In this document: piece by piece, positions 4,077 through 63,916 of the stretch | Position numbering within the stretch: the first letter of the stretch is position 1 | Layout: the number at the start of each line of letters is the position of its first letter | Source: an uncultured Schlesneria sp. | GTDB taxonomy: Bacteria > Planctomycetota > Planctomycetia > Planctomycetales > Planctomycetaceae | DNA: 64,000 nt | Assembly: GCA_903904835.1 (NCBI GenBank) | Contig: CAIVEI010000065.1 | Span: 1 to 64,000 of the forward strand | Reading direction: 5' to 3' | Translations under genes and position numbers: made by a program | The notes under the pieces: model-generated | Databases searched by the model: none | What the model was told of the DNA's origin: nothing | Seen by the model: only the letters and a program-made list of their open reading frames with translations

Positions 4077-4332
4077 GATTTCGTCACTACTGGATGTTGA
4101 ATCTCGTCCAAATCATGACGCAATTACTGCCGAACAGGATCATACCAGTGTTTCAAGTTTTAATAGCTTGTGTGGATCGTAACAGATATACAAAGCCTCG
4201 ATTGTTTCGCCCCTGAAGCGATGCCAACCCTCGATCTTTGACGCAAACCTTTTTGACAATCAGACCGATGGATCTGTGAAGTGGAAGATCTTTTCACTTA
4301 AAAACTCATTCCACGGATCGGTGAGTGACCGA

Positions 4333-12767: not shown

Positions 12768-13910
12768 TTATGGCTTGTGAACCCGAATCCAGTGATCGGT
12801 GAACCGCAAATTCGTATCCGTTGCGATCGATGGCATATGGCACGACACGCAATTGCTTGTTTGTGGTTGCGACCGACAAGGTTGTCCGACTCCCTTTTCA
12901 TCGTAGTGGCACGAGCTGCAGACTTTTTGATAAACGCTTGTGTCCTTGGGCAGCGGACGGTGCAGATTATGACAACTGAGGCAATCGAGTCGCACAGGGG
13001 GGGAATTGGAATCTCCAGCACCTTGACTTTTGAAACAGCGACTTTGAGAAAGCCCGACCGGCGCGAAGCGGACGATACGTACTGACTCGCTATTCAAGTC
13101 TGACGGATCGGTTTCGTCAGCGCGACGGTGGCATTCACCGCAGCGATCAATCACCGCTTGCGGCGACATTTTCGACCAGTGTTCGCGAAATGCGGCGGGG
13201 TTCCCGTTCTGGGCAAGATGCCCGGCAGCATCAGGGTGACATCGCACGCATCCCACGGTTCCAATCAGTTGACTGGGCTGAATCTTTCCCGCGTGATCGA
13301 CAGGAACATAAGTTGAGTGACATCCGATACAAGCTTTCGCATTGGAATGTTCCTGCCACTGAGCGAGTGCGGCCATTCCTTCGGTGGCAAAATGCTTCAT
13401 GTCGTTCCCTAATGCGGGAGCGAGGCCGACCGACGGATACCACGCAAGCAAATGTTCTAACATCTCGGTCTCACCCTCAGGATTGGTGATCAACTGAACG
13501 AGTCCCTGTGACTTTCCCCCGGAACCCATGACCAGGTCGACGTGCAGTCGCAAGGGTGAATCCTCTTGAGTCAGCCAAAGTCCATCGTCCTCCGCGACGT
13601 AGCGAAACAATGGACCATCCGAGGTCCAGCGATACTCAAGGTTGGCGAAGCGAGCAATCACCTTCGGATCATTGCCGGGCCACAACGATTGAGCGTGGCC
13701 GGTTTTCGCAAATTCATCGCAGATCTCACGATGACAGCTCGCACATTGTGCGGTTGTTGGTGGAACCCTGTCGTCGTTGACGAGTGGCGTGAGTTGTCTT
13801 TCCAGCCTGTTCTGAGGCCACTTGGAAACGTTGAGGCCAGTGATCAGCACCAATACTGCCAGCAACGGTAAAAGCGATAATCGACTATTTAGAATTTGGC
13901 GCAACGACAT
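12768..13910 (-). CDS. heptaheme c-type cytochrome
   Basis: A 380-residue exported or membrane-anchored cytochrome with an N-terminal hydrophobic segment (LLPLLAVLVLITGLNV) and seven CxxCH sites: CASCH, CIGCH, CVRCH, CGECH, CLSCH, CSSCH and CVSCH. It ends with a CVSCHMP...DHWIRVH motif that the cytochrome at 32358-33518 also has. It resembles the cytochrome c554-type multiheme group and would carry electrons in the periplasm. The ATG at 13910 is chosen over a TTG at 13916; it lies inside the end of the upstream membrane/TPR gene, a 26-nt overlap that implies coupling. Redox partner and substrate are not visible. Confidence 0.88.
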   Translation of the reverse strand: MSLRQILNSRLSLLPLLAVLVLITGLNVSKWPQNRLERQLTPLVNDDRVPPTTAQCASCHREICDEFAKTGHAQSLWPGNDPKVIARFANLEYRWTSDGPLFRYVAEDDGLWLTQEDSPLRLHVDLVMGSGGKSQGLVQLITNPEGETEMLEHLLAWYPSVGLAPALGNDMKHFATEGMAALAQWQEHSNAKACIGCHSTYVPVDHAGKIQPSQLIGTVGCVRCHPDAAGHLAQNGNPAAFREHWSKMSPQAVIDRCGECHRRADETDPSDLNSESVRIVRFAPVGLSQSRCFKSQGAGDSNSPPVRLDCLSCHNLHRPLPKDTSVYQKVCSSCHYDEKGVGQPCRSQPQTSNCVSCHMPSIATDTNLRFTDHWIRVHKP

Positions 13911-16071
13911 TAACAATAGCCTTGGATTCAGTGGAGTCGGGAAATCTCTGGATCAATTCTTTTGACCACCGCTCCGCCTGTTGTGGATTGCCCTCTTCTA
14001 ATGAAATCTGCGATAAGGCGAAAAGAGACGCGGGATTCGACGCAGAAAGCCCATTCTTCGCAGATTCAAAATCGTGTTTAATATATGCCGACGCCGCCAT
14101 TTTATAGCCGTCCGGTAACGAAACAAACGCTGATTCTCCGGCTGGATTCACGCGGCTGAGAAGAAATGGATCGCCGCCACTTTCAAGGTACGCACACATT
14201 CGCCAGCAAGTCGCCTGCCCATTGGCCAGGAATTCACGATAAGCGAGGGACAATTGAATCGCGGTGAACTCGCGTTGAGCGTCATCGTCTCGCTTCTGCA
14301 AACCGTACTTCAACACTTTAAGAGCCGCAACAGGCCGTTTCATCGCGACGAGAGTTCGGGCCAGTCTGAGATCTATTTGCCGGTCGTGCAGCCCGGTCAA
14401 CCATCCCCAGAGATCGAAGTGACTACCAGTTCCCGAAGCAGGTGGTTTGGGGTATGTCCATTCACCTGATTCAATGACATCGAATGTTGACTGAACGTCA
14501 ATCAGGCGCCGACTGATCGAAGGGTCACCGACAAGACCGTAGGGTAATGAGGGAGTATCGATCGCAAGCGCTTTCCAGAGACTCGAGTCGAGCGCGCGGA
14601 TAATGGAGTACTCGTCGGACGAGACAAGAAGTAATCGCGTGCGGCGTTCACGAAGTCGGTTTAACCACCCTCCGAAACTTCCGTCAGATCGTCGATGCTG
14701 GTCACGTCGGCTGTGAGCGAGATCCCATCCAATCCGAACATGCTCTTGAAGGCGTCCGGATAAAAGTGCTCGGGACGGAAAATCTGCCGGGCGAATCAAG
14801 CCCGGGCGCAACCATGCCAGCAGCCCCGCCTCGCGGGCTCCACTACAATAGCCGGACCCGTCCAGTTTGAACTCGGCCATGATGTCCTCAATGAGAACTG
14901 GCTCTAATTGTGGTGCCAATCCCCATCCGAGTCTGGTTTGGCTACTGGGCCAGGCCCCCCCACCCACGCTCAAGGCGAACGCCGTCAAAACGAGCGGTGA
15001 CAAATAGCGAGTCCATTCCGGACGACGCATCGCTAATTCCGTTTCGGTCGTCGTTTCACGAGGTCGTTCGGTATGGCAAAGTTCGATTGACCAAAGCATC
15101 AGAAACAACCCGGAAATCCCGAGGTTCGCCGTGGAGGACGCGACCATCAGGATGACCAGTGTAAGGCATCCAAAGTCTTGCCAGCCTGCTAAAATTCCTG
15201 CTGAAGATTTCCTGATGAGCAGAATAAGATTGACGACACAAAGAATCACAAACGCCGAGAGCTCAGCCGAAGGTGGCCAATTGAATCGTGGCAGAATTCC
15301 GGCAGCGGCAAGTGTCCCGAGATCGATACAGGTCCACGGTAGAAGAATTCTCAAGGAGTCGAAAAACGTAAGGAATCCACGAGGCGTTGCCGATCCGGCG
15401 AGTAGCATGCACGCGAAGAGTCCGAATTGATATCGCGTTCCAACTGGCGGAAAGCGATTTCGATCCGCGAGATTGAGTCGTGCAAATGTGACGACCAATC
15501 CAACGAGTGGTAACGTTGCAAAATTTGCCCAAATCAATTCGCACAAACAAAGCACAAGGATTCCTTGAGTAACGATTCGTCCGCCTCGTCGGCGAATTTT
15601 TCCAGCAAGAAACCAAGTTGCGATTACGCCAAACGCATCGAACAAAGCTGGTGTTGGCGACCATGTGTTTCGAGCTGCCGCGAAACCCAGAATCAATAAT
15701 CCGATACGAGTTCGACTGAATTGGCGTTGTGCATCGCCGGGTTTTGAAATGGAATTCGCCATAATCACGGCTGTAATCGCCAGTCCAAAACAGATGACCG
15801 AAGGGCCAACGTTCATGAACAGCAGATACCACGGAAGTCCACCAAGCCAATCAGCGTCGGAGTTCGCTTCAAAAGCGAGCAACGATTGGGACGGGTTTAT
15901 TTGCCCGGTCCAGACTGCCCGACCACGTGAGACGTGCCACCAGAAATCCGGCGCAATAATTGGATGAAGGGTCAGGAGTAACACCAACCCGGCCAGTTCC
16001 CAAGACCAGGCAGAATTCGTGGCCCTTCTTTCCGAACTTTGATTCGCAGCATTGTTGTCACGAGTCGACAT
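13885..16071 (-). CDS. polytopic membrane protein with C-terminal TPR-like region
   Basis: A 728-residue protein with about ten hydrophobic segments in its first 400 residues (opening at AWSWELAGLVLLLTLHPII, with a DFWWHVSRG loop) and a soluble C-terminal part with TPR-like helices (LVAMKRPVAALKVLKYG, SQISLEEGNPQQAERWSKEL). The layout recalls bacterial membrane glycosyltransferases or polymerases, but I see no decisive catalytic motif, so that remains a possibility only. Start is uncertain: ATG at 16071, or a GTG at 16077 better spaced from GGAG. It overlaps the heptaheme cytochrome downstream, suggesting a shared complex or process. Confidence 0.75.
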   Translation of the reverse strand: MSTRDNNAANQSSERRATNSAWSWELAGLVLLLTLHPIIAPDFWWHVSRGRAVWTGQINPSQSLLAFEANSDADWLGGLPWYLLFMNVGPSVICFGLAITAVIMANSISKPGDAQRQFSRTRIGLLILGFAAARNTWSPTPALFDAFGVIATWFLAGKIRRRGGRIVTQGILVLCLCELIWANFATLPLVGLVVTFARLNLADRNRFPPVGTRYQFGLFACMLLAGSATPRGFLTFFDSLRILLPWTCIDLGTLAAAGILPRFNWPPSAELSAFVILCVVNLILLIRKSSAGILAGWQDFGCLTLVILMVASSTANLGISGLFLMLWSIELCHTERPRETTTETELAMRRPEWTRYLSPLVLTAFALSVGGGAWPSSQTRLGWGLAPQLEPVLIEDIMAEFKLDGSGYCSGAREAGLLAWLRPGLIRPADFPSRALLSGRLQEHVRIGWDLAHSRRDQHRRSDGSFGGWLNRLRERRTRLLLVSSDEYSIIRALDSSLWKALAIDTPSLPYGLVGDPSISRRLIDVQSTFDVIESGEWTYPKPPASGTGSHFDLWGWLTGLHDRQIDLRLARTLVAMKRPVAALKVLKYGLQKRDDDAQREFTAIQLSLAYREFLANGQATCWRMCAYLESGGDPFLLSRVNPAGESAFVSLPDGYKMAASAYIKHDFESAKNGLSASNPASLFALSQISLEEGNPQQAERWSKELIQRFPDSTESKAIVNVVAPNSK

Positions 16072-16393
16072 GGACACTGCAACATGCTCCCTGATTTTAC
16101 AGCGATGGTTTTTGAATGGTCGCCAATATTTCTGCCGACAGCCAGGCAACGTGGCGCCACGCTTCAATGATGGGCTTTTGTGAGAAGTCGAGGGGTGTTC
16201 ACGAGGCAATCATGAATGATTTTCAACGGGTTTTCCAGTGAGTGTTGACGTTTTCGTAATTCTGTTTTCGATGGAAGGAATCCCGTTTTGATTGTTGAAG
16301 ACCGAATCAATTCTTCGAAATTGGTTGCAATTTCGTGACGGGCCGAGTGAACTACGGTTTTATTTCACGAGAACATTCTGGAAAGGCGGATGG

Positions 16394-30200: not shown

Positions 30201-30256
30201 TCGTCATTCGCGAAGGAATTCGTGACCTGATTCGACGATCCCGCGACGACGAGTGA
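27251..30256 (+). CDS. large TPR + FG-GAP/VCBS + ASPIC/UnbV protein
   Basis: A 1,001-residue protein. The TTG at 27251 has GGAG 7 nt upstream. A membrane span at about 15-33 (ALALLLLSVAAVTVC) anchors or exports it; residues ~40-350 are TPR-like repeats; ~450-900 are FG-GAP/VCBS units with calcium loops (DFDLDAWPDLFF, DIDRDGNLDLYV, DADNDGWLDLAI); the end is an ASPIC/UnbV domain (IDWPSGIKE). It is built like the proteins at 36235 and 39531. The family has no settled biochemical role; the parts suggest a surface or periplasmic binding scaffold. It is the only one of the four on the plus strand. Confidence 0.87.
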   Translation: MPQLKPTPRRTRNLFPTALALLLLSVAAVTVCRHYLTPSREVLEQQVITAMAANDFTKADAALRQIVPRDTDVLELLADVAFRQGRKQDCLKWLEQLADVSSRPQGALCAAGSRAFEFARPLDAERLFRRAIQISPNSLEPYSRLARLYLACQRGFELRQLIAQADAAEVPLSDDPTLIWLWVVGDRVDWQGDDSQKWLESVGVEQPEDSFSAAALITLKLQSKARLSSELLREIDTKRQAKRSLFFDWPLALAQATIELESNQIEPALLTLSQITGDGEQQAETWLLRGRAAEAMGDFDAGLVAYDQASRLEPLSVTSHYRLGHLLAKVNRRDESEAELRTAVRLDELVRRCMQILQSTAIAPDNLLSVASQSIEAGEERWTQLVCEFADRSLGNSIEWPATVDAVRRKSVPRLTVNKPKAAPPKFMVNRTRIRNQQPSAPTDVRESNQISIRFTETTQQLGLQFQFEYGHSRERWLMETLGGGVAVIDFDLDAWPDLFFAEGGPLSSTGGMPPGRGQLRRNIRGTALQDVTDVAQANVVGYSHGCAVGDINSDGFPDLLVCRYGGLTLLTNQGDGTWADTTTTAVEHDDSVSHPDSSDGSIVSRGMAENLWNTSAAFVDIDRDGNLDLYVDGYCHAPLSSNLKTCRERNQYSPCRPNAYPPEPDTLLMNSGTGHFWNRSDSYGIHGEGGYGLGVIAADFDGDGIAEIFVGNDTTNNFLWHQSKGLEPRADLRFEEIGLVSGVAVDGSGRAEACMGIACGDVDGDQRLDLFVTNFFDETCTFYQNLGELQFEDRTQQIGLSNEGRRLMGWGCQFFDADNDGWLDLAIVNGHLHDTPQLPQFYCNRNGRFSETSSSVGPYFREPKLGRSLATWDYNRDGRIDLVVSHQTELASVLRNDSDVGKSLTLKLVGTKSVRDATGAIVRARVGDRHLVRLVSSQGGYLSACSSEVIIGLGEAEAVDELEIDWPSGIKETHGRIQAGQSLVIREGIRDLIRRSRDDE

Positions 30257-30573: not shown

Positions 30574-32361
30574 TCACGGCGTTGGCCCACACGGAGAAGG
30601 CGCTCTTTCCTTTTGCCGTCGATCGGCCTCATCGGATTTGCCGTGTGCGCGAAGCCAATTGGCGAGTTCATATGCCGCTTTGCAGTTCCACGGCTGTCGG
30701 GTGACGCGGGCCTTCAACCATTGTTCATTAAGCTCTTCCTTTCCTGCCGAATGACTTGCTCGGATCAATGACCCTAACAGATCCTCGGACATGTCCTGAG
30801 GAGTCTGTTGTTCAAAGAGAGTCTGTCTTTCGGCAGAAAGTCTTCGGAAGATTTTCATCGAATCGTCGATCAAGTCTTTTGCGAGATCTGCCGCATCCAC
30901 TCCGTCACGAAATGGCAGTTTTTGGTAGATCATCATGGCGAGGGCGTGGGCTGCGAGATGATCCTCATCTTGAACCGCCATTTGCTCATTCGCCGATTGT
31001 TCGTCGAGCGCCCGACTCGAAGACCACTCCCGCGACCAGGTATGTTGCCAGATCCGTTTGGCGATTTCTTCCCCAGCAATTCGATTTCCTTCCCACGTGA
31101 AGTGAACGTGTTCCAGGAAGTGAGTTCTCCCAGGGACACCGTTTAAATCCGCGCGGCAGACGGCAGTGTGAAGGTCCAGAAAATCAGCCCCGTTCGCAGC
31201 ATGGTTCAGGGCGACTTGCTCCATTGTGATGCGAAACGCCGACGGAGCGCGAAACCTGCAACCGTCCAGATCCATCGCTCGTTGAAATTGCGCGATTGCA
31301 AGTGGATGTTGTTCTGTCCGCTCATAGGCTAGCGCAAGTCGAAACGCAACCAACGGATCTTGATCGCGTTCCAGTCGGACTGCTTCCAGGATTTCGAGCC
31401 CCTTCAATGGATCGCCCCAACGAAGTTCTCGTTCCGCCGCCGCCATCTTGACTCGCCACGCTTCGGCAGGTGCCGAAGTATTGTTCGGGTTCAATTTTTC
31501 AATCGGCGGTTGATCATGTTCGTTGGCAACAGGACTGACAAAGATGATGGGAATCCCCGCACGTCCGGCCAGCGACGCCATTGCTGACAAGTTTGCTTCA
31601 AATCTTGCTATCCCCTGTTGAAAGGTGTCTCCGTTGAATTCGATGTGCAAGTTGCCCGGCAAAGACTCGATCAGATCCCTGGATGACGCGCGAGGCTTTG
31701 TCAGTCTTCGAATGTTCTGTGCGAGATAGCAGCGACGCCAGATCGCGGCAGTTCGATACCACCGGGGGCTGAGCCAACTGGCCGAAGATGCCACACCGCC
31801 CGGTCCATAGAATTCGTTGTGGCCGGTATAGACGACGATCACATCGGGGTTTGCCTTGAGACCTTCATGGACGACGGCAACTTCGGTCGATGTATTCATC
31901 GCCGTGATCCCGGCGTTCAGAACCTCGATCGTCTCACCCTCGGCAGCTTGAGCTTGAAGAGCGACTTCCATGTGACGAGGAAACGCAAGCTCGGAGGGAT
32001 AGGGAAAACCCACAACCGTCGAACCGCCCACAACCAGAATCCGCCGAGTTCCCTTCGGCTTTGGCAACTGAAACGGTCGTGGTTCAGGCCCGGACAAATC
32101 GGCCTGTCCGTAGAAAGGCTCGTCGAACTTCGGATTCAACTGATACCAGCCCGGCGACTGGGAAAGCGGAACGATCAGGGAAAGATCACGACCGATTCCG
32201 AACAGGCGCAGACCACCTTCCAGTATGAGAAGAGGGACGATTCCAAACGAGATCGCGGCGAGACGCAGCAACCAGACGCGACCTCGCGATCTGGTGCGGT
32301 TCGTTCTCCCGTTCTTTTGATCGAGTGAATCGGACTTGGGTTTATCCATCGTCAAGATCAT
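30574..32361 (-). CDS. membrane-anchored SGNH-type hydrolase
   Basis: A 595-residue protein. The ATG at 32361 overlaps the stop of the upstream cytochrome gene (ATGA), which decides the start. After an N-terminal membrane span (LAAISFGIVPLLILEGGL) comes an SGNH/GDSL-like hydrolase domain: the nucleophile Ser is in VVGGSTVVG at about 115, block III reads YTGHNEFYG, and the catalytic His region is FLEHVHFTWEGN at about 420. The last ~150 residues are helical and may be TPR-like. SGNH enzymes next to sugar-modifying genes often act as O-acyl esterases or transferases on glycans, a plausible periplasmic role here. It ends the carbamoyltransferase cluster. Confidence 0.82.
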   Translation of the reverse strand: MILTMDKPKSDSLDQKNGRTNRTRSRGRVWLLRLAAISFGIVPLLILEGGLRLFGIGRDLSLIVPLSQSPGWYQLNPKFDEPFYGQADLSGPEPRPFQLPKPKGTRRILVVGGSTVVGFPYPSELAFPRHMEVALQAQAAEGETIEVLNAGITAMNTSTEVAVVHEGLKANPDVIVVYTGHNEFYGPGGVASSASWLSPRWYRTAAIWRRCYLAQNIRRLTKPRASSRDLIESLPGNLHIEFNGDTFQQGIARFEANLSAMASLAGRAGIPIIFVSPVANEHDQPPIEKLNPNNTSAPAEAWRVKMAAAERELRWGDPLKGLEILEAVRLERDQDPLVAFRLALAYERTEQHPLAIAQFQRAMDLDGCRFRAPSAFRITMEQVALNHAANGADFLDLHTAVCRADLNGVPGRTHFLEHVHFTWEGNRIAGEEIAKRIWQHTWSREWSSSRALDEQSANEQMAVQDEDHLAAHALAMMIYQKLPFRDGVDAADLAKDLIDDSMKIFRRLSAERQTLFEQQTPQDMSEDLLGSLIRASHSAGKEELNEQWLKARVTRQPWNCKAAYELANWLRAHGKSDEADRRQKERAPSPCGPTP

Positions 32362-33518
32362 TCCGGTTTCACGGGATTGGGGTGGATTCGAATCCAATGG
32401 TCATGAAATGAGATTCCCGGATGGACCTCGACTGCGGGCATGTGGCACGAGACGCAATTTTCGAGGGGAGATTGCGGGCAGATTTTGTTCCCCTCATCAA
32501 CATTCGAGTGGCACTTCCGGCATTTTTCTGTGTAGTTTTCAGCAACAGCATCGACGGTGTGATGTGGATCGTGACAGGTTGTGCACCGCAACCGGTCCGT
32601 TGACCTTCGAAAGCAATTCGAGTTCAGCAACCCGACCGGCTGAAACCGGGCCAGTTTTGGGTCACTTTTCGACACAGGCGACGACATCATTTCGGGGGTT
32701 CGATGACACCTTCCACACATTTGGATTTCTTGCATTGGCGTGTCTCCACCTTTCGCGAATTGAATTGCGATCTCGTTTTGACTCGTCTGCATCGCTGCCG
32801 CATGGCTTCGTCCTGGACCGTGACAGCTCTCGCAACTGACGTTGGCTCGAAGATCGTCAAGCTCTTGGCCATGAATTCGTCCCGTCGTCGTATGGCAACC
32901 GATGCAATTGACTGCGTCCTTTCCCTGATGTGTTCGCCCCAGGCAATCCAGCGGATCGCGAACGGCAACACCCGCGTGACTTGGTGTCAGGTCAAGCCGT
33001 TGTCCGTTGTCGAACAAAGTCAGTCGGTGTTCCAGCAACCTGGGCTGACCGCGTGCCTCATCCAGCAAAGTCACAAAGGTCGTTGCGTGCGTTCCCGATC
33101 CGACCGCGAATTGAACCGGTTGCCGCTGGCGGCGGCTTCCATCGTCGAATTCAGCAATCAGACGAGATCCTTCAATCGTAAATTTCAGGATGCCACTTCG
33201 TTCCGGGTCATTCCATTCGCGACCGTTCAGCATTGTAAATCGCTCGGCAAGATCGTCGGTATAAAAAGTTCGACCATGGCCGCTGCTCTTAAATGCGGTT
33301 GCTTGATCAGCATGGCATTCGGCACACGCATTGGAGCCAATGTAAGCGGGCTGAAGCGGGTTAGACCAGTTGTTGGAATTCTTCGATTCGGCCTCGTGCG
33401 TCGTGACTGAATTCGTGGAGGACTTCCAACCAGGGATCGAGCCGATACCGAACACGACTATCAGCACAATACCGCGATGCCACCAGTTCCAATTGTTGAT
33501 CTTCATCAGCTTCGACAC
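32358..33518 (-). CDS. heptaheme c-type cytochrome
   Basis: A 386-residue cytochrome with an N-terminal membrane/signal segment (IVLIVVFGIGSIPGW) and seven CxxCH motifs: CAECH, CIGCH, CESCH, CGRCH, CTTCH, CRKCH and CVSCH. The end, CVSCHMP...HDHWIRIH, is nearly the same as in the cytochrome at 12768-13910, so they are paralogues or share a partner. The frame opens with a GTG at 33518; an ATG at 33506 is an alternative and neither has a good ribosome site. It overlaps the SGNH gene by 4 nt and follows the DUF5989 gene by 13 nt, so it belongs to the same operon. Confidence 0.87.
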   Translation of the reverse strand: MSKLMKINNWNWWHRGIVLIVVFGIGSIPGWKSSTNSVTTHEAESKNSNNWSNPLQPAYIGSNACAECHADQATAFKSSGHGRTFYTDDLAERFTMLNGREWNDPERSGILKFTIEGSRLIAEFDDGSRRQRQPVQFAVGSGTHATTFVTLLDEARGQPRLLEHRLTLFDNGQRLDLTPSHAGVAVRDPLDCLGRTHQGKDAVNCIGCHTTTGRIHGQELDDLRANVSCESCHGPGRSHAAAMQTSQNEIAIQFAKGGDTPMQEIQMCGRCHRTPEMMSSPVSKSDPKLARFQPVGLLNSNCFRRSTDRLRCTTCHDPHHTVDAVAENYTEKCRKCHSNVDEGNKICPQSPLENCVSCHMPAVEVHPGISFHDHWIRIHPNPVKPE

Positions 33519-33531
33519 TTTCGCACGGGCA

Positions 33532-33825
33532 TCACCAAATGGGATAAATCAACGGTCCGAGCGCAGTCCCGCCAAGGAAAACCAGTCCTGCGAGCAAAAG
33601 AAGCACTATGACAATGGGAGTCAGCCACCACGCTCGATATTCACGAAGGAAATCCGTGAATTCCCGCACCAAACCTGGTGTGCGCTCGTTTGCTTGTTTT
33701 GCAAAGTCGATGACTTGCCCGTTGGCACTCGTCGGCTCCGAATTCGCGGCCGAGGTCGATTTCGACGTGTCGCTTTGGGGAATTGAGTGAGATATCTGTG
33801 ACGGTGGAGTACGAGGTTCGGTCAT
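33532..33825 (-). CDS. DUF5989-family (SxtK-like) small membrane protein
   Basis: A 97-residue protein. AGGGAG lies 3 nt before the ATG at 33825, so the longer open frame to 34098 is rejected. A Ser/Thr/Pro-rich N-terminal half is followed by FLREYRAWWLTPIV and one strong membrane span (VIVLLLLAGLVFLGGTALGPLIY). This C-terminal pattern matches DUF5989 proteins, which sit beside SxtJ and carbamoyltransferase genes; the saxitoxin cluster equivalent is SxtK. Function is unknown. Confidence 0.7.
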   Translation of the reverse strand: MTEPRTPPSQISHSIPQSDTSKSTSAANSEPTSANGQVIDFAKQANERTPGLVREFTDFLREYRAWWLTPIVIVLLLLAGLVFLGGTALGPLIYPIW

Positions 33826-33875
33826 GACTCCCTGACTTGCCGACTGAGTTTTACAGAAACATTGTTTGATACGGA

Positions 33876-34286
33876 TTAGAACTGACGAAAGTAACGGCTG
33901 GCCGGAGGCATCGGGTCGCGACGCACCCAATAGGTCGAACGGGTCGGCTCGAATTGACGAGCCAGCGGGTCGACGCCGCAACATCTTAACAGAATTCCGA
34001 CAGGAAAAACGAGCAGCCAGAACACGCTGGCGAGCAAGAGATACGAGACACACAAACCGATCGGAAAGACGGCGATCATCCAGCCAATGTAGCACCACCG
34101 AATAAGCGTTGGCCAGATCACTCCCATTACGCCGATCAGAAGTGATACCCCCATGAGTATCGCAGCCAGGTCCTGAGAGCCGCCTCGCCTTGCGATTCCG
34201 GAAGCAAGCAGCGCTATGAGCACGACCTGGCCCACGGCGAAGATTCGCAACTCATTCGGCGTCGGATTCCAGTTGATTCGGATCAT
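33876..34286 (-). CDS. SxtJ-like membrane protein
   Basis: A 136-residue protein with three hydrophobic segments (AVGQVVLIALLASGIA, LAAILMGVSLLIGVMGVIWP and the YIGWMIAVFPIGLCVSYLLL to VFWLLVFPVGILL region). It ends with a soluble tail containing DPLARQFEPTRSTYWVRRD, a pattern I associate with SxtJ proteins. It starts 7 nt after the carbamoyltransferase stop and precedes the DUF5989 gene, the same order as sxtI-sxtJ-sxtK in saxitoxin clusters. Its role is unknown; presenting the substrate to the carbamoyltransferase or exporting the product are guesses. Confidence 0.72.
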   Translation of the reverse strand: MIRINWNPTPNELRIFAVGQVVLIALLASGIARRGGSQDLAAILMGVSLLIGVMGVIWPTLIRWCYIGWMIAVFPIGLCVSYLLLASVFWLLVFPVGILLRCCGVDPLARQFEPTRSTYWVRRDPMPPASRYFRQF

Positions 34287-34293
34287 CGAAACC

Positions 34294-36129
34294 TCAATCG
34301 AGCGCAAACTTTGGAGAAGTTGTCGCGGTGACGTCCTGGGCGATGTTGGTTTGTTCTGGTCGCAAAAGCACGAAACGTTCGATCACAAGGGCGTCGATAT
34401 TCGTGTTGGCAAAACAATCATAAGCCTCTTCGGGGGTGCAGACGATTGGTTCGCCACGCACGTTGAAACTCGTATTGATCAACATGGGCGAACCGGTGAG
34501 AGACTCGAATTCCTTCAGCAAATGATGGAATCGACCGTGTCGCTCGGCGTTGACGGTCTGCACTCGAGCAGAATAGTCAACGTGCGTCACAGCAGGAATT
34601 GTTGACCGGGGTGTGTTGATGGCCGGAAGTCCACGGGATGGCGCATCGGCCGAAACGGGAAGGCGATGTTGCTGTCGCACGTTTGCAACGGTGAGCATAT
34701 AGGGACCAAGGACTTTCGGCTCCGCATCAAAGTATTCTGACGCGCATTCTTCGAGAACCGCTGGGGCGAAAGGACGGAACGATTCACGAAACTTGATCTT
34801 CAAATTCATGACTGATTGCAGTCGAGGACTACGCGCGTCACCAAGGATACTTCGCGAACCCAAGGCTCGCGGACCGAACTCCATCCGACCGGCAAACCAG
34901 CCAACGACCTGTTCCTTGGCTAGTAAACCCGCTACGTACTGACACAATTCTGTTTCGTCGGAAATGTATCGATACTTGGCTCCTCGTGCATCGAGCATCG
35001 CACGTATGGCAGATTCATCGTAATTCGGACCTAACAGTGACCCACGCAAAATATCATGGGGATTTGGCTGTCTTGGATTTTGAAGCAACTGATACCAGAT
35101 CATCAAAGCGACGCCGAGCGCCCCGCCTGCGTCTCCCGCTGCGGGTTGAATCCAGATTCGTTCAAACGGACCTTCACGCGCAAGACGTCCGTTCGCAACA
35201 CAGTTTAAAGCGACTCCGCCTGCCATGCACAGGTTGTTCATCCGGGTCATTTCGTGGAGGTGCTTCGCCATTCTCAAGATGATCTCTTCTGTCACCACCT
35301 GGATTGATGCAGCGAGATCAAGTTCGCGCTGAGTCAGCGGTGACTCGGGCGTTCGGGGCGGACCACCGAACAGTTGATCAAACTTTCGCGAGGTCATCGT
35401 AAGGCCGTGCCAAAAGTCAAAATAGGCCAGGTTCAGTCGAAACGACCCGTCGGGCTTCAAATCGAGAAGATGTCGATAGATCGCCTCAACAAATTGAGGT
35501 TCACCATACGGGGCCAGTCCCATGAGCTTGTACTCACCCGAGTTCACGCGAAAACCACAGAAATGGGTGAACGCCGAATATAACAGGCCCAGCGAATGAG
35601 GAAATCTTAGTTCGCCGGTTAACTCAATTCGATTTCCGTGACCAACGCCATAGCTTGTGGTGGCCCATTCTCCCACGCCATCAAGTGTTAAGATTGCGGC
35701 ATCTTCAAAGGGAGATGGGAAGAATGCGCTGGCCGCGTGCGATTCATGATGTTCGCAAAAAACGAAACGCTTCTTGTAGTGATGACCGAGTTGCGATCGC
35801 AGGTCGCGATCGAGGAACAGTTTCTCTTTCAACCAGACTGGCATCGCCGAAATGAAAGAACGAAACCCAAACGGGACTGCGGCGACATACATCTCCAGCA
35901 ACCGGCCAAACTTGAGTAATGGCTTCTCATAGTAGCCGACGTAGTCGATTTGGCTGACGGACAATCCTGCCTCGGCCAGACAGAATTCAACGGCCCTGGC
36001 AGGAAATGCCGCGTCATGTTTTTTTCTCGAAAACCGTTCTTCCTGGGCGGCAGCAACGATCTTGCCGTCAACGATTAACGCTGCCGCAGAGTCGTGGTAA
36101 TAAGCCGAAATTCCAAGTATCGCGGTCAT
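34294..36129 (-). CDS. NodU/CmcH-family O-carbamoyltransferase
   Basis: A 611-residue enzyme that transfers a carbamoyl group from carbamoyl phosphate via carbamoyl-AMP to a hydroxyl. The N-terminal Kae1-like domain begins ILGISAYYHDSAAALIVDG and carries HHESHAAS and LTLDGVGEW near 120-150. The metal/adenylate region is MAGGVALNCVANG, and the C-terminal YrdC-like part includes GRMEFGPRALGSRSIL, INTPRSTIPAVTHVD and LINTSFNVRGEPIV. Length is normal; the ATG at 36129 is chosen because the family start immediately follows. Acceptors in the family include Nod factors, antibiotics, saxitoxin and surface glycans. The neighbours here favour an envelope molecule. Confidence 0.93.
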   Translation of the reverse strand: MTAILGISAYYHDSAAALIVDGKIVAAAQEERFSRKKHDAAFPARAVEFCLAEAGLSVSQIDYVGYYEKPLLKFGRLLEMYVAAVPFGFRSFISAMPVWLKEKLFLDRDLRSQLGHHYKKRFVFCEHHESHAASAFFPSPFEDAAILTLDGVGEWATTSYGVGHGNRIELTGELRFPHSLGLLYSAFTHFCGFRVNSGEYKLMGLAPYGEPQFVEAIYRHLLDLKPDGSFRLNLAYFDFWHGLTMTSRKFDQLFGGPPRTPESPLTQRELDLAASIQVVTEEIILRMAKHLHEMTRMNNLCMAGGVALNCVANGRLAREGPFERIWIQPAAGDAGGALGVALMIWYQLLQNPRQPNPHDILRGSLLGPNYDESAIRAMLDARGAKYRYISDETELCQYVAGLLAKEQVVGWFAGRMEFGPRALGSRSILGDARSPRLQSVMNLKIKFRESFRPFAPAVLEECASEYFDAEPKVLGPYMLTVANVRQQHRLPVSADAPSRGLPAINTPRSTIPAVTHVDYSARVQTVNAERHGRFHHLLKEFESLTGSPMLINTSFNVRGEPIVCTPEEAYDCFANTNIDALVIERFVLLRPEQTNIAQDVTATTSPKFALD

Positions 36130-36186
36130 GAGGTTTTGTTTCGGAGTGGAATTTGAAGTTGTTGGCAATTGAGAATGTTGTTTCAT

Positions 36187-36234: not shown

Positions 36235-39200
36235 CTAGCGTTCTAACGCACGATCGAAAACCGGAGCACTTCCTTCGCGGAGCAATATCTCGACTGGAAC
36301 AGCGACATCGGCCAGACGTTGGACAAGTCCGGACGGCCAGCGAATGATCAGTTCATCGATCTGAACGGCCGACCCAGTTCCAAAAACGAGTTGGCGTTCG
36401 TTACTGCATTGATATCCGTCCCCCGCTGTCAACTGACGAACGATCGATCGTGATCCGATACGTGCCTGAACCGTCGTACTGATGGCGTCGCGATTGGAAT
36501 TGACGCCAAAAAGACGTAATGAAAGATGACCACCCACGGCCGATGTCGTGTTGCTCAGGATCGCGACGGGATCGCGTAGATGGCCCACCGCCAGATCGTC
36601 GCGTCCATCACGATTCCAATCGATGCGGGCAACAGTACGTCCCAGCCAATTCTGTTCAAAATAGGGGCCCAATTGGTTCTTCGGTAGATCGGCGAAGCGT
36701 CCGTTTCCGTCCAAACCGAATAATTGCGGCGGCATTCGGTAGGGGCGGTTGAACCGGCTGAGGTCATCGACGTGTCCATTCGACACAAACAGCTCCAGTC
36801 GACCATCCAGGTCCGCGTCGAGAAATTGCGTCCCGAAACCAAGCATGTTCAACGACGGGGCTTCCAAACCGAAGCGACGAGTCTGATCTTCGAAGTATCC
36901 AGGCGCTGTATTGATGAAAAGCGTATTCGGTTCGGCGTAGAAATTGGTGATCAGCAAGTCCATTCGACCATTGTCATCGACATCACCGACAGCAATCCCC
37001 ATGCTCCCGGTGGCCTTACCGGCACCATTGAAAGCAACCCCGCTTTCGACGGCGCGGTCGCGAAGTTGGCCCCTTTTCCCGTCGGTCATATCGGGTCGAA
37101 AAAAGAAACAGGGAGTGGTGTCGTTGGCCACAAACAGGCTTAATCGCCCCTGGCCGTCCGCATCCCATGCGGCGACTCCCAATCCCATTCCAAGCGGGAC
37201 TTCACCCAGCAATTCGGCGGTCGCCTCTTGAAAACTGCCGTCCCCCTGATTCCGCCATAATCGATCGGCTTGCCCATGGAAATCAGACGGCATACAGAGT
37301 GTTGGCGATCCATCGGGATGATGACAGATGCGGTCGAACGTATCGGCATCTGCCGCGTAATTCACGTCGTAAATATCGGGCAAACCGTCGCCAGTCAGGT
37401 CCACCATAATGCAACTGGTGGTCCAGTCTGCTGCGGTCAGGCCCGCCAAATTCGTCACATCGTCAAACGTGCCGTCCCCCTGATTTTGCCAGAGTTGATT
37501 GCGGCCGATGTTGGCAACGTAAATATCAGGGAAGCCATCGGAGTTAAAGTCGCCGATCGTCACACCCTGTCCGAATCCCTTTTCGAGGATTCCGGCGGAA
37601 ACTGTCACATCGTCAAATGAGACACCCGCGTGATTTCGGTAGATCCGATCGACGTGGCCAACGTCGGGCGAACCAGGCGGCCAGGCATGGCCTTGCGTGA
37701 AGAACAAATCGGGAAACGCATCGAGATCAAAATCGAGTACGCCAATCCCTCCCCCGGTAAACTCGAACATGCGATGCGTCGGCGATCCTTTGACTCCGTT
37801 AAAATATTCAAATCGGATACCGATGGCGTGAGCGTCATCTCGAAATGTCGGAGAGACTTGAGCACCGGCGACATCAGTTCCTGAAGCTTTCGATTTCACG
37901 CGAAGATCGGGAAACGGGTAACGAGAAAGGTCAACTGCCAGCGCAACATTCGCGTTGTCTATCACCAGTTTCAGTGGTTGATTCCGAACCGCTTGTCGCA
38001 ACCGATCGAAGTGCGCCGGCAAATCCTTTGTGTTCGCACCCACGCTGATCGCAAATTGACACCATCCGTAAGCTTCCCACAATCGTCCCGCAGATTCATA
38101 GGCGTCTGCTAATGGCCATAACAGTTCGGGCTGACCGCGATCAGCAGCGAATAGGACCCGATTTTGCATTTCTTCCAGTGCTTGCATTACCGACAAACGA
38201 CCCCGAAATTCTTCGGCGATAAGGGTGTCGCCTGCGGCAGCGAGACAATGGACCAGCCGAAAGGTAGACGTTTTTGATTCGGGACTCCGTCGGATCGATT
38301 CCCAGTAGCAGCGAATCGCTCCTCGAACGTCGTCGACAGCTTCGGCCATCTGACCTCGGATTGACCAGACGTCGGCAAAGTCTTCAGCCCCCGCTGGCAA
38401 TGATCGGTTCCATTCTGCGAATTCCGCGGATCGGCTGGTCGACAAGAGAAGTCGGCCCAACAGGACATAAGCGGCAATGTGCTGCGGATCAATCCGTAGC
38501 GAAGTCCTGAGAAGTTGTTCTGCTTCCGGATATCCTTCGCGTTGGAACGCGTGCCACGCAAGCCCCACGAGCGGATTCGGATCATGGGGATCGGCCTCAT
38601 TCGCCTGGGTCAGTAATTCAAGGTCATCGACGAAAGTATCCGTGCGAGCGAGCAACAGCAGCATATCGGTTTCGGCGTTTTGTCGGATCAAACGCAACAC
38701 GAGGGGTGTTGCTTCTCGCTTACGACCGCACAGACAAAGCAATTGAACCAGCCCGGTGTTCGCGATGACGTTATCGGCGTCCAGTTCAAGGACGTCGCGG
38801 TACGCTCGTTCTGCCTTGCCAAGCTGGCATAAATGCCGATGCAGAATGTTCGCTTCTCGCAGTCGATTCGATATTCTGACGCGGAAATCGCGTGACTTGA
38901 TTTGACCAAAGTACCCGAGTGCCCGAGACCAGTTGTGTTGAGCTGCGGCACACTCCCCGGCCAGAACTAACGCTTCAATCAATTCTGGATCGAGTTCGTG
39001 CGCCTTCATCGCCAACTTTTCTGCTTCGGCAATATGCCCAAGCCGCCGTTCGCGACGTGCCTTACTCAGGATTTCGTCGGGTGAAAGCGTTGCCCCCCAT
39101 CCGAACCAGAAATAGAGGCTGCCGACGCAGACAATCACCCCGATCATGAGTCCGATCGCGACGAACAGTCGAGAAGATCGTTGAGGGGGAGAATGATCTG

Positions 39201-39252
39201 GTTGAGCCACGTGGAGGTTGTTCGTTTTTGTAGTGTGGGCTTCAGCCCGCAC
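36235..39252 (-). CDS. large TPR + FG-GAP/VCBS + ASPIC/UnbV protein
   Basis: A 1,005-residue protein: one membrane span at about 30-50 (LFVAIGLMIGVIVCVGSLYFWFG), TPR-like repeats to ~400, then FG-GAP/VCBS units with calcium loops (DFDLDAFPDLFF, DFNSDGFPDIYV, DADLDGRLELFV) and a C-terminal ASPIC/UnbV domain (IIRWPSGLVQ). The frame opens with a GTG at 39252 inside a palindromic repeat; the true start could be the GTG at 39210. It is very similar in design and wording (GQGVTIGDFNSDGFPD; GQGAAVGDFDSDGFPD) to the next gene, so they are tandem paralogues. It lies just upstream of the carbamoyltransferase set. Confidence 0.87.
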   Translation of the reverse strand: MRAEAHTTKTNNLHVAQPDHSPPQRSSRLFVAIGLMIGVIVCVGSLYFWFGWGATLSPDEILSKARRERRLGHIAEAEKLAMKAHELDPELIEALVLAGECAAAQHNWSRALGYFGQIKSRDFRVRISNRLREANILHRHLCQLGKAERAYRDVLELDADNVIANTGLVQLLCLCGRKREATPLVLRLIRQNAETDMLLLLARTDTFVDDLELLTQANEADPHDPNPLVGLAWHAFQREGYPEAEQLLRTSLRIDPQHIAAYVLLGRLLLSTSRSAEFAEWNRSLPAGAEDFADVWSIRGQMAEAVDDVRGAIRCYWESIRRSPESKTSTFRLVHCLAAAGDTLIAEEFRGRLSVMQALEEMQNRVLFAADRGQPELLWPLADAYESAGRLWEAYGWCQFAISVGANTKDLPAHFDRLRQAVRNQPLKLVIDNANVALAVDLSRYPFPDLRVKSKASGTDVAGAQVSPTFRDDAHAIGIRFEYFNGVKGSPTHRMFEFTGGGIGVLDFDLDAFPDLFFTQGHAWPPGSPDVGHVDRIYRNHAGVSFDDVTVSAGILEKGFGQGVTIGDFNSDGFPDIYVANIGRNQLWQNQGDGTFDDVTNLAGLTAADWTTSCIMVDLTGDGLPDIYDVNYAADADTFDRICHHPDGSPTLCMPSDFHGQADRLWRNQGDGSFQEATAELLGEVPLGMGLGVAAWDADGQGRLSLFVANDTTPCFFFRPDMTDGKRGQLRDRAVESGVAFNGAGKATGSMGIAVGDVDDNGRMDLLITNFYAEPNTLFINTAPGYFEDQTRRFGLEAPSLNMLGFGTQFLDADLDGRLELFVSNGHVDDLSRFNRPYRMPPQLFGLDGNGRFADLPKNQLGPYFEQNWLGRTVARIDWNRDGRDDLAVGHLRDPVAILSNTTSAVGGHLSLRLFGVNSNRDAISTTVQARIGSRSIVRQLTAGDGYQCSNERQLVFGTGSAVQIDELIIRWPSGLVQRLADVAVPVEILLREGSAPVFDRALER
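39233..39252. repeat. short palindrome at a gene start
   Basis: GTGTGGGCT and AGCCCGCAC form a 9-bp stem (one G-T pair) with a 2-nt loop. It overlaps the apparent GTG start of the TPR/CRTAC1 gene. Its sequence looks like a short intergenic palindrome that has inserted at or drifted into the gene's 5' end. Confidence 0.5.
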
Positions 39253-39530: not shown

Positions 39531-42518
39531 CTAATCATCACGACCGGTGATGACATCGACGACTTCTGATTCCTCTGGCCCACGTCGCACGATGCCGCGC
39601 GATGTCGATTCGATCAGTTCGATTGTCACGTCAGCGGGTAAGTCACGCACCGTTGTCGTCATTCCTTGCGGCCAATGAACGATCAATTCGTTAATCGTCG
39701 TTGTGGCACCCAAACCAAATTGGACCAACCGCTCGTTGCTTGCCATGTAACCATCGCCAGCGACGAGCTGTTTCTTCCAAACGCGATCAGCGGCATGGAC
39801 CTCAATCAAACTCCCGATCGCATCGCGTCCGCCCAGACGCGCGGTGAGACGTACCGAGATGAAGTGACCAGCCCCTTGCGTGACATTCATCACCAGTGAT
39901 GCCCGGTCCCCCACGTTCGAAACGGCAAAATCCATCAGCCCATCCCGATTCCAATCTAACCGAGACAACCCACGACCAAGCCGTTTTTGTGCGAAGAACG
40001 AACCGATCTCATTGGCCATCAGTTCAGAAAATCGACCCGTTCCCAAGTTGCGAAAAAACTGGGGTCGCATGTGAAATTCGCCCCCTTCGTCGCGGTAATC
40101 GTCGATGTGTCCGTTCACACCGACGATATCCGGGAACCCATCGCAATCAGCATCCAGACATTGTGTCCCCCAGCCGACAAATGGCATCGTTGCGGACCGG
40201 AATCCTGCGGTCGTGGCGTTATCGACGAATAACCCGGGGGAATCTTGCAGGAATAACATGCTCGATTCGTCCTTGTAGGTTGTGATATAGAAATCAATCC
40301 GGCCATCACCGTCGAGATCGTCTGCTGCGATCCCCATCGATGCCATCGCCAATCCGTCCTGATTGTAGGCCACCCCGCGAATGAATGCTTCGTCTTCCAG
40401 TCGAATATTGAGAGGCTCTGCGGTGGCCTGGTTGTGCAGCAAGAAATTCGGCACCTGGTCATTAGAGATCAATAAACTTGGGCGACCTCGCTCAAGCAGT
40501 TCAAACGCGACAATCCCTAACCCCTTTCCTTTCGGCTCGCGGGCATCCGGGGAGATCAGTTCGAAAGTGCCGTCGCCGTGACTGAGCAGCAGCCGATCGG
40601 GAGCTCCATCGAACGCTTTTGGAGAACACGCCCGGCCTTGACAGATCATCTCGTAAACATGGGGGCCGGTCACATAATTCACGTCGTAAAGATCAGGATG
40701 GCCGTCGGCGTTCAGGTCGACAACAACACAACTGGTGGTCCAATCCGTCGATGCCAATCCGGCCCGGTCTGTCACGTCTGAGAATGTTCCGTCGCCGTTA
40801 TTATGCAAGAGCTGATTACGTCCGACGTTGGCGACATAAAGGTCAGGAAAACCGTCGCTGTCGAAGTCACCAACGGCAGCTCCCTGACCATATCCCCGAT
40901 CAACCAATCCCGAGGATTGAGTGACGTCAAGCGCCTCGCGTCCAACAAGATTTCGAAACAGGCGGTCAGTCAGGGATAAGGATGGCTCGGGTTCAGACTG
41001 ACCGGTGCGCCAGACCGACCCTTGTGGTAAGAACAGATCGGGCCAGTTGTCGCGGTCGTAGTCGAGCACAGCGACCCCTCCGCCGGTCTGTTCGAACATC
41101 CGTTGGCCTGGCGTTGCAGGGTCAATGGAATTGAAATACGTAAAGTCGGGTCCGCTTTCCGATTCCTCAAAACGAATCTGGGAATTCTTATTGGCTTCGA
41201 GTTCCATGAAGGATTCTGTGTGGGGAATTGAAGACAGATTAAATTGAGGAAATGCTGACAGGTCGAATTGCAGCGCCAGATTTTCATGATCAACGACCAG
41301 TGGCAGCTTTTCGTCAAGTTGTCCTGCCACTCGCGCAAACAATTCACGTGGCCATGTCGCGTCGGGAAATTGCCGTTCAGCAACGATGCCCCATGCTGCC
41401 GCTTCCCAAAGTCGACCCATCTGCTCTAACAATAGAGCGACATCCCTGATCGGCTCGACTCGCTGTGAATGCGTAGTCAACACCTGGTCGATCAATTGCG
41501 TCAGCTCAGTCTGTTGCTTCGAGCGGTTTTCAATGACTTCGACGTTCTTAGTTTGAAGTAAGCGCAACTGCTGTCCCAATTGTGCTGTCGCCCGGCGGGA
41601 TGTCGACAGGTCCCGTAGCGAATTCCAGAAACACCGAGCTGCCATTTGAGTCTGATGATGCTTACGAGACCAGAGGCCAAACACGTATTGGATGTCGGGG
41701 TCGCGATTCGCGGTGCTCGGAAGATCTCGATACCATTTGACGAACTGATCGTCGGAATGATTGATAAGTAACTCACCCAGCATGGCCAGCCCGGCGATGA
41801 AATGAGGGGAAACGGACAGACTCTTTTTCAAGCGGACCATCGCTTCGTCCGTTCGCCCGTCCCACAACGCATCAGCCGCCAATCCGAATTGAACGAGTTG
41901 GTCACCGGGCGATTTTTTTTCGCAGTCGTTCAGAAATTGAAGCTGCTCGTTCGGTCGGTCAAGATCGGCAAACAGGACGAGCTCGTGAACATCGGCTTTC
42001 CCGCTACGCACGAGAGAAAAGAAATGGGGGACAGACTCACGACGACGGCCTGACACGTTCATCAGAAAAGCCAGTCGCTCGTGCGTCAGCACATGGTTGG
42101 GCGAGAATTTTAGAAATCGTTGATACAACGCCTGGGCGTCATTTAATCGACCGGCATCCCGACACGTTTCGGCTGCATAATAAAGACCGAGCGGGGGTTC
42201 TTTGAACTGTCTCTGCCGCTCAGCCAACATCTCGTAATGCTGCACAGCCGCGTCGATACGCCCCGCCTTGGCGGCGGCCTCGCCCGCAACGGAAAGGGCT
42301 TGGATCTGGGGCGAACCCAACGCGACAATCTCGATCGCTAGCCGTTCTGCACGGTCGTAATCGCCTTGTTTTAACGCCGCCTTGGCATCCGACAGCTCCG
42401 GCGGCGGGAGGAGGGTCACGCCACGTCTCATCGCGAGGATAAAACCAGCGCCAATGACGACGAACGCCAAGACAAGAAAGATCCAACGTCGTCGAAGCAA
42501 GTTTTGACTACCCGTCAT
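39531..42518 (-). CDS. large TPR + FG-GAP/VCBS + ASPIC/UnbV protein
   Basis: A 995-residue protein with an N-terminal membrane span (IFLVLAFVVIGAGFILAM, about 13-30), TPR-like repeats to ~400, FG-GAP/VCBS units (DYDRDNWPDLFL, DFDSDGFPDLYV, DADCDGFPDIVG) and an ASPIC/UnbV domain (IVHWPQGMTT). It is the closest relative of the gene at 36235, implying duplication. It starts 22 nt after the stop of a DUF1559-associated lipoprotein gene, so transcription may run on from there. A ribosome site is weak. A surface or periplasmic scaffold role is inferred from architecture only. Confidence 0.87.
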   Translation of the reverse strand: MTGSQNLLRRRWIFLVLAFVVIGAGFILAMRRGVTLLPPPELSDAKAALKQGDYDRAERLAIEIVALGSPQIQALSVAGEAAAKAGRIDAAVQHYEMLAERQRQFKEPPLGLYYAAETCRDAGRLNDAQALYQRFLKFSPNHVLTHERLAFLMNVSGRRRESVPHFFSLVRSGKADVHELVLFADLDRPNEQLQFLNDCEKKSPGDQLVQFGLAADALWDGRTDEAMVRLKKSLSVSPHFIAGLAMLGELLINHSDDQFVKWYRDLPSTANRDPDIQYVFGLWSRKHHQTQMAARCFWNSLRDLSTSRRATAQLGQQLRLLQTKNVEVIENRSKQQTELTQLIDQVLTTHSQRVEPIRDVALLLEQMGRLWEAAAWGIVAERQFPDATWPRELFARVAGQLDEKLPLVVDHENLALQFDLSAFPQFNLSSIPHTESFMELEANKNSQIRFEESESGPDFTYFNSIDPATPGQRMFEQTGGGVAVLDYDRDNWPDLFLPQGSVWRTGQSEPEPSLSLTDRLFRNLVGREALDVTQSSGLVDRGYGQGAAVGDFDSDGFPDLYVANVGRNQLLHNNGDGTFSDVTDRAGLASTDWTTSCVVVDLNADGHPDLYDVNYVTGPHVYEMICQGRACSPKAFDGAPDRLLLSHGDGTFELISPDAREPKGKGLGIVAFELLERGRPSLLISNDQVPNFLLHNQATAEPLNIRLEDEAFIRGVAYNQDGLAMASMGIAADDLDGDGRIDFYITTYKDESSMLFLQDSPGLFVDNATTAGFRSATMPFVGWGTQCLDADCDGFPDIVGVNGHIDDYRDEGGEFHMRPQFFRNLGTGRFSELMANEIGSFFAQKRLGRGLSRLDWNRDGLMDFAVSNVGDRASLVMNVTQGAGHFISVRLTARLGGRDAIGSLIEVHAADRVWKKQLVAGDGYMASNERLVQFGLGATTTINELIVHWPQGMTTTVRDLPADVTIELIESTSRGIVRRGPEESEVVDVITGRDD

Positions 42519-63815: not shown

Positions 63816-63916
63816 CGTCAAATTCTCCGCAAGTGTCGTTCGATGAATAACGCAATGTTACAGATCGAAGACCCTGCCGCCAAAGGCACGGAGAACTTGA
63901 AATCAAGAAACTGGGA

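Follow-up and report, generated by a model that had tools for sequence, protein, structure and literature searches.

Do five closely spaced genes on the minus strand of a Schlesneria contig form one system? The genes lie at positions 30574–36129 of a 64,000-nucleotide (nt) stretch (the window; positions 1 to 64,000 of contig CAIVEI010000065.1) from an uncultured Schlesneria sp. They encode a predicted O-carbamoyltransferase (34294..36129), an SxtJ-family small membrane protein (33876..34286), a DUF5989 protein (33532..33825), a heptaheme c-type cytochrome (32358..33506) and an SGNH hydrolase-like protein (30574..32361). Along this run the gaps are 7, 50 and 13 nt, the last measured to a GTG start of the cytochrome (25 nt from its ATG), and the cytochrome and SGNH genes then overlap by 4 nt (ATGA). 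A sequence-only reading had reported the same five genes, order and spacing, and all were present. It had also proposed that carbamoyl/acyl tailoring is tied to periplasmic electron transfer, or that the cytochrome senses or oxidizes the product, which is not well supported, because the modules are conserved separately. The locus probably consists of two modules placed end to end: a widespread membrane-linked O-carbamoylation trio, and a Planctomycetaceae cytochrome–SGNH pair, in a region of CRTAC1, TPR and DUF1559 genes.

Separate conservation of the trio and the cytochrome–SGNH pair

The analysis covered 80 regions anchored on DUF5989, each at most 20 kb long: 60 came from the window genome and from its genus, family and class, and 20 were hand-picked elsewhere in the phylum. 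The carbamoyltransferase, SxtJ and DUF5989 genes were all labelled in 57 of these 80 planctomycete regions, some of which end at contig edges. Among named carbamoyltransferase loci examined in several phyla, 23 of 38 have the order carbamoyltransferase–SxtJ–DUF5989. Given these counts, the trio is an ordinary, widespread conserved module. A phylum-wide sample of 391 planctomycete genomes contained DUF5989 in 169 cases, and 37 of the 59 genomes of relatives had it too. Many DUF5989 matches (family f35 and others) fall in open frames of at least 500 amino acids (aa), perhaps as fusions or in another context.

Relatives of the cytochrome were labelled with an iterated profile and scored when they lay within 8 kb. 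Such a relative accompanied the trio in 4 of the 80 regions, namely the window (L100), G383 (L152), G186 (L155) and G328 (L145), and no labelled relative was found within this distance in the other 76, nor in any of the 38 named loci from several phyla. The G328 relative, with four heme motifs, is encoded on the opposite strand; proteins with at least five heme motifs were found at up to this distance from the trio in 3 of the 80 regions. When the comparison was anchored on the cytochrome, the trio was found within 8 kb in 1 of 56 cytochrome-bearing regions (L169, from G383). The window's trio-linked copy is not among these 56, two regions from the window genome (L168 and L226) are, and a few had been selected through an SGNH or CRTAC1-like match (e.g., L212 and L226).

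The exact five-gene order was found in 1 of the 80 regions, the window alone. The five families also occur together in G383, in a stretch of about 8.5 kb on one strand, with the genes in a different order. In G186, a TPR-fused cytochrome relative of another clade lies 9 nt upstream of the trio, and the SGNH search of 391 genomes found no window-type SGNH there. Eleven of 14 genus-mate genomes carry DUF5989, and none of the 13 DUF5989 regions fetched from genus-mates (some of which end at contig edges) has a cytochrome within 8 kb. G398, the genus-mate whose cytochrome is nearest (57%; SGNH 59%), has its cytochrome, SGNH and DUF5989 genes on separate contigs with other neighbours. The five genes therefore mostly do not co-occur in related genomes, an outcome that the sequence-only reading had itself named as one that would refute its proposal. 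Its interpretation as a single system is only partly supported.

The SGNH-anchored search covered 391 genomes, with at most three candidates per genome scored at a threshold of 290 bits; the cytochrome search scored at most four per genome, and the searches in relatives scored all or nearly all candidates. At or above 290 bits, the window-type SGNH was found in seven genomes (the window genome, G383, G121, G234, G167, G208 and G328), and a cytochrome was encoded within about 7 kb of it in all seven. The two genes adjoin on the same strand in five (the window genome, G383, G234, G208 and G328), with spacings of −4 nt (window and G383), −8, −8 and +14 nt; G121 and G167, which are sister genomes, have the cytochrome 5 to 7 kb off on the opposite strand. 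The trio was near the cytochrome–SGNH genes in 2 of the 7 genomes (window and G383), although DUF5989 is present in all of them; it is on another contig in four and far away in G234. Most cytochrome–SGNH neighbourhoods were first met in cytochrome-anchored regions, a bias that affects neither the SGNH-anchored search nor the DUF5989-anchored set. Counts for the SGNH and TPR glycosyltransferase-like labels rest on repeat-free queries.

These data are best read as showing that (i) the cytochrome and the window-type SGNH form a unit of their own; and (ii) the trio is a facultative neighbour of that unit. No description of a cytochrome–SGNH pair was found in the literature searched, although one may exist. 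The cytochrome is not generally part of the trio.

Gene histories and competing explanations

Three quick trees were built without bootstrap. In the cytochrome tree the window protein groups with that of G398 (94) and then with that of G383 (100), and the G186 cytochrome falls in another part of the tree. The SGNH tree, which has many long branches, likewise joins the window with G398 (98) and then G383 (100), and the 15-row set around the window (99) holds all 6 cytochrome-near rows and 3 of the 36 labelled as trio-linked only. The window SGNH was considered as a usual trio-linked SGNH, and this was rejected, because it belongs to another clade than 33 of the 36 trio-linked SGNHs. The carbamoyltransferase tree (65 rows of named and family/class regions, with the 20 phylum-wide regions set aside and L003, a copy of L113, left out) places the window as sister to G404 (100). 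The G404 enzyme matches the window's at 75.45%, and its trio has no nearby cytochrome. A five-gene system would call for congruent histories, and the three trees disagree: the cytochrome and the SGNH protein share a history that the carbamoyltransferase does not.

Several observations weigh against reading the locus as two modules with independent purposes. A close cytochrome within 8 kb is expected by chance in 0.18 of 60 regions and 2 were seen (P = 0.015); in a looser count, 0.88 were expected and 4 seen (P = 0.013). When the index case was removed, 1 (P = 0.16) and 3 (P = 0.06) remained, respectively. The chance model takes copy numbers and rounded genome sizes, scatters the copies randomly and ignores contig ends; for the looser count, each genome was taken to have five copies. 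The proximity of trio and cytochrome is at most a hint of recurrence, since it is significant above chance only with the index case counted. Moreover, the cytochrome-near trios of the window, G383 and G186 occupy three distinct positions in the carbamoyltransferase tree, and the trio and cytochrome genes of G383 and G186 are co-directional, as recurrent functional coupling would predict. The pairing of cytochrome and SGNH is itself looser in the smaller search among relatives: for its six best SGNH matches, the cytochrome is adjacent in two (window and G208), convergent in one (G403) and not adjacent in G398 and G417, and the G406 match is at a contig edge. Finally, the trio has an SGNH-type protein, mostly from another clade, no more than 3 kb away in 21 of the 80 planctomycete regions (the window counted) and in 15 of the 38 named regions. 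With SGNH proteins enriched near trios, the one beside the window's trio may matter functionally.

This enrichment was compared with expectation. At 12 PF13472 matches per genome (252 over 21 genomes), about 1.4 of 80 regions would have an SGNH by chance, and 2.9 or 4.6 of 80 at 25 or 40 per genome; the counting profile was iterated and reaches beyond PF13472, which makes the enrichment ratio rough. Eight trio-linked SGNHs hand-picked for Pfam all match PF13472 at E < 0.01, 4 of them above the cut-off. The excess of SGNHs seems genuine and points to O-carbamoylation modules frequently acting together with an esterase. The trio might then commonly act with some SGNH esterase, with the cytochrome-linked SGNH recruited to that role in the window and the cytochrome brought along as its operon partner. 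The excess of neighbouring SGNHs over expectation would be explained, as would a second trio of the window genome (L101, G000:C105:35300-55200), in which an SGNH gene overlaps the carbamoyltransferase gene by 4 nt, an arrangement common to the genus-mates G391, G392, G393 and G395. We give this account a low probability, given the different clade of the window SGNH, its Glu as putative catalytic acid in EHVH and the roughness of the expectation.

We also consider unlikely a true five-gene system, in which carbamoyl tailoring is coupled to a cytochrome that oxidizes or senses the product, the SGNH protein trims acyl or carbamoyl esters, and an old link has often been rearranged. Such a system would fit the tight gaps and single strand in the window, the five families on one strand in G383, the cytochrome relative just upstream of the G186 trio and the three separate points of the carbamoyltransferase tree at which trio and cytochrome lie together; in addition, the trio is nearby in 1 of 6 non-index SGNH-type genomes when about 0.02 would be expected (by hand arithmetic). 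It is at odds with the 76 of 80 trio regions that have no cytochrome relative within 8 kb, with the 55 of 56 other cytochrome-bearing regions that have no trio within 8 kb, with the fusion and clade of the G186 cytochrome and the lack there of a detected window-type SGNH, with the dispersed genes of G398, and with the disagreement of the gene trees. That the genes are pure chance neighbours, with operon-like spacing and no shared transcript, is very improbable. The exact order was found in no other region examined, and cytochrome–SGNH pairs elsewhere are mostly without a trio, as this would have it; gaps of 7–50 nt on one strand argue against it, and the terminator scan was uninformative.

Two modules joined end to end thus remain our preferred explanation. 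In the trio, a carbamoyl group would be transferred in the cytoplasm onto a hydroxyl of an export-bound molecule, with SxtJ and DUF5989 docking the carbamoyltransferase to the membrane or an exporter. The cytochrome–SGNH pair would act outside the inner membrane for a purpose of its own, with the SGNH protein acylating or deacylating a glycan or protein that has been exported and the cytochrome transferring electrons. In the window genome the trio would have come to lie upstream of the pair, and the spacing suggests that a transcript is probably shared. A functional link between the two modules is possible. The data establish the genes, their families, and their separate histories and conservation; the activities, the substrates and any cooperation are conjectural. 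As a more speculative and rather improbable extension, the pair may be an undescribed, redox-linked surface esterase of Planctomycetaceae that is repeatedly recruited beside the O-carbamoylation module, so that the periplasmic redox state governs the addition and trimming of carbamoyl or acyl groups on an exported glycan. The analysis tells the conserved units (the trio; the cytochrome–SGNH pair) apart from their local joining. Worth following are the pair itself and the excess of SGNH proteins next to SxtJ/DUF5989-type carbamoylation modules in several phyla; an esterase partner would suggest that the trio modifies an exported ester-bearing molecule.

The proteins of the locus and their surroundings

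The product of the first gene (611 aa; 630 aa from an in-frame upstream ATG at 36186) is a predicted NodU/TobZ-type O-carbamoyltransferase, with matches to PF02543 (341.7 bits) and PF16861 (233.3 bits). It aligns over most of its length with the solved novobiocin-type enzyme (9s2t), GdmN (7vyj) and TobZ (3ven), and the metal- and nucleotide-site motifs HHxxHA, DGxGE, GGVAxN and EFGPRALGxRSIL are intact in the alignment with 9s2t. The SxtJ protein (136 aa) scores 29.2 bits against PF19588 (cut-off 24.4) and has three hydrophobic segments, and the DUF5989 protein (97 aa) scores 51.1 bits against PF19451 (cut-off 27) and has one, at its C-terminus. These segments would fit membrane docking. The carbamoyltransferase, SxtJ and DUF5989 models, the check proposed in the sequence-only reading, all scored above cut-off, the small proteins included, and its family assignments were correct; the SGNH match to Pfam is sub-threshold, with the Ser, Asn and His blocks kept in relatives. 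No mention of DUF5989 turned up in the literature searched.

The cytochrome (382 aa; 386 aa from a GTG at 33518) has seven CXXCH motifs and matches PF13435 above its cut-off (37 bits), and no NCBIfam model scored above its cut-off. In 30 aligned cytochromes, hand-chosen from 76 labelled open frames, the seven CXXCH motifs, H77, H235, H315, H370 and the non-heme Cys298 are invariant. The four extra His are fewer invariant candidate ligands than seven hemes, so that an open heme is conceivable and the cytochrome may be catalytic rather than wiring alone. In the 56 regions, the neighbours encoded no more than 3 kb from a member of the cytochrome family were DUF1559 pilin-like proteins (32), a membrane-TPR protein termed M7 (21), CRTAC1-like (12), TPR (9) and SGNH proteins (5). 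Genes of the DUF1559 family are very common in planctomycetes, so that their association with the cytochrome is weak evidence.

The SGNH protein (595 aa) has an N-terminal membrane anchor and a TPR-like insert, and its match to PF13472 (GDSL_2) reaches 21.8 bits, below the cut-off of 32.9. Ser114 (GGST), Asn182 (GHNE) and Glu417/His420 (EHVH) are invariant in 10 of 10 aligned sequences, with Glu at the acid position. The usual catalytic acid of SGNH enzymes is Asp.

The minus-strand run extends upstream beyond the five genes, a continuation that the sequence-only reading had missed while describing the five-gene run correctly. Directly upstream of the carbamoyltransferase, 105 nt from its ATG at 36129, is a CRTAC1-like gene (36235..39252; TPR + FG-GAP + ASPIC/UnbV, ∼1000 aa; PF13517, PF14559 and PF07593), and 278 nt further upstream a second one (39531..42518; also TPR + FG-GAP + ASPIC/UnbV and ∼1000 aa; PF13517 and PF07593), both on the minus strand. 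A terminator-like stem of 14 pairs lies upstream of the latter (43117-43086, minus strand), and minus-strand terminator matches within 30574-36129 all fall inside genes; the scan gave 14 sites in total against 15.3 in shuffled sequences, not above chance. Two more ASPIC/UnbV proteins bring the window to four: a CRTAC1-like TPR + FG-GAP + ASPIC/UnbV protein downstream of the five genes on the other strand (27251-30256), and a shorter CRTAC1-like protein with an ASPIC/UnbV match (23423-25150). The window genome has 22 ASPIC/UnbV matches, within a range of 0 to 22 per genome among 59 genomes.

The sequence-only reading had also noted the seven-heme cytochrome and overlooked a second heptaheme protein of the same family at 12768..13916 on the minus strand (seven CXXCH; 29% identity and 115.6 bits to the first), which falls in an M7-linked clade of the tree. 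The end of M7, a 774-aa membrane and TPR protein (13885-16209), overlaps the start of this gene. In G186, G284, G340 and G344 (L171, L172, L175 and L178), a similar locus has CRTAC1-like and TPR genes flanked by two heptaheme cytochromes that belong to different clades and are separated by ∼7 kb. The two cytochromes of the window fall in the same two large clades; the roughly 20 kb that separates them includes CRTAC1-like, TPR and DUF1559 genes. The protein at 20481-22301, with a long N-terminal part and a C-terminal TPR, is perhaps a protein or lipid glycosyltransferase; its relative in G383 (L169:7430-9145) has a weak PMT_2 match. Elsewhere in the window, three consecutive proteins (845-2362, 2637-4076 and 4276-5754) resemble paralogous outer-membrane porins, an impression from the sequence with no scan, and a 1987-aa open frame (57858-63821) has five CXXCH motifs.

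Comparison with known systems

As in the sxtI-sxtJ-sxtK genes of the saxitoxin cluster, a carbamoyltransferase is followed by SxtJ and then by a very small protein; the DUF5989 gene may be the equivalent of sxtK. In contrast, the trio of the window is surrounded by CRTAC1/TPR/DUF1559 and cytochrome genes. A Pfam scan of 14 window proteins did not suggest a saxitoxin-like pathway, although the saxitoxin genes were not searched one by one. The functions of the two small proteins beside sxtI are given as unknown in the gene table of PMC2679770.

The carbamoyltransferase itself resembles TobZ, GdmN and the novobiocin enzyme in a near full-length match, with the motifs kept relative to the novobiocin enzyme. 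These three act on antibiotics, and we know of no SxtJ or DUF5989 partners for them. The cytochrome is nearest to C554-type multiheme cytochromes. A profile of its 30 relatives matches 4rkm, 6i5b, 6r2q, 6qvm and 1bvb over parts of the sequence, and the nearest solved proteins by profile (MccA, 6i5b, 6r2q, OcwA (6qvm) and cytochrome c554) are matched over partial length only. Unlike MccA, OcwA and c554, the window protein combines seven hemes in ∼390 aa with the invariant non-heme Cys298 and a C-terminal DHWIR-type motif.

The part of PMC12758564 that deals with hydrazine synthase-homologue loci describes, in some clades, an FG-GAP protein annotated as CRTAC1 family, encoded between the subunit genes. 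Those loci share with the window a CRTAC1-family gene beside genes for redox proteins. They differ in that the redox proteins are others, and in the window the CRTAC1-like genes adjoin an O-carbamoylation trio and a cytochrome–SGNH pair.

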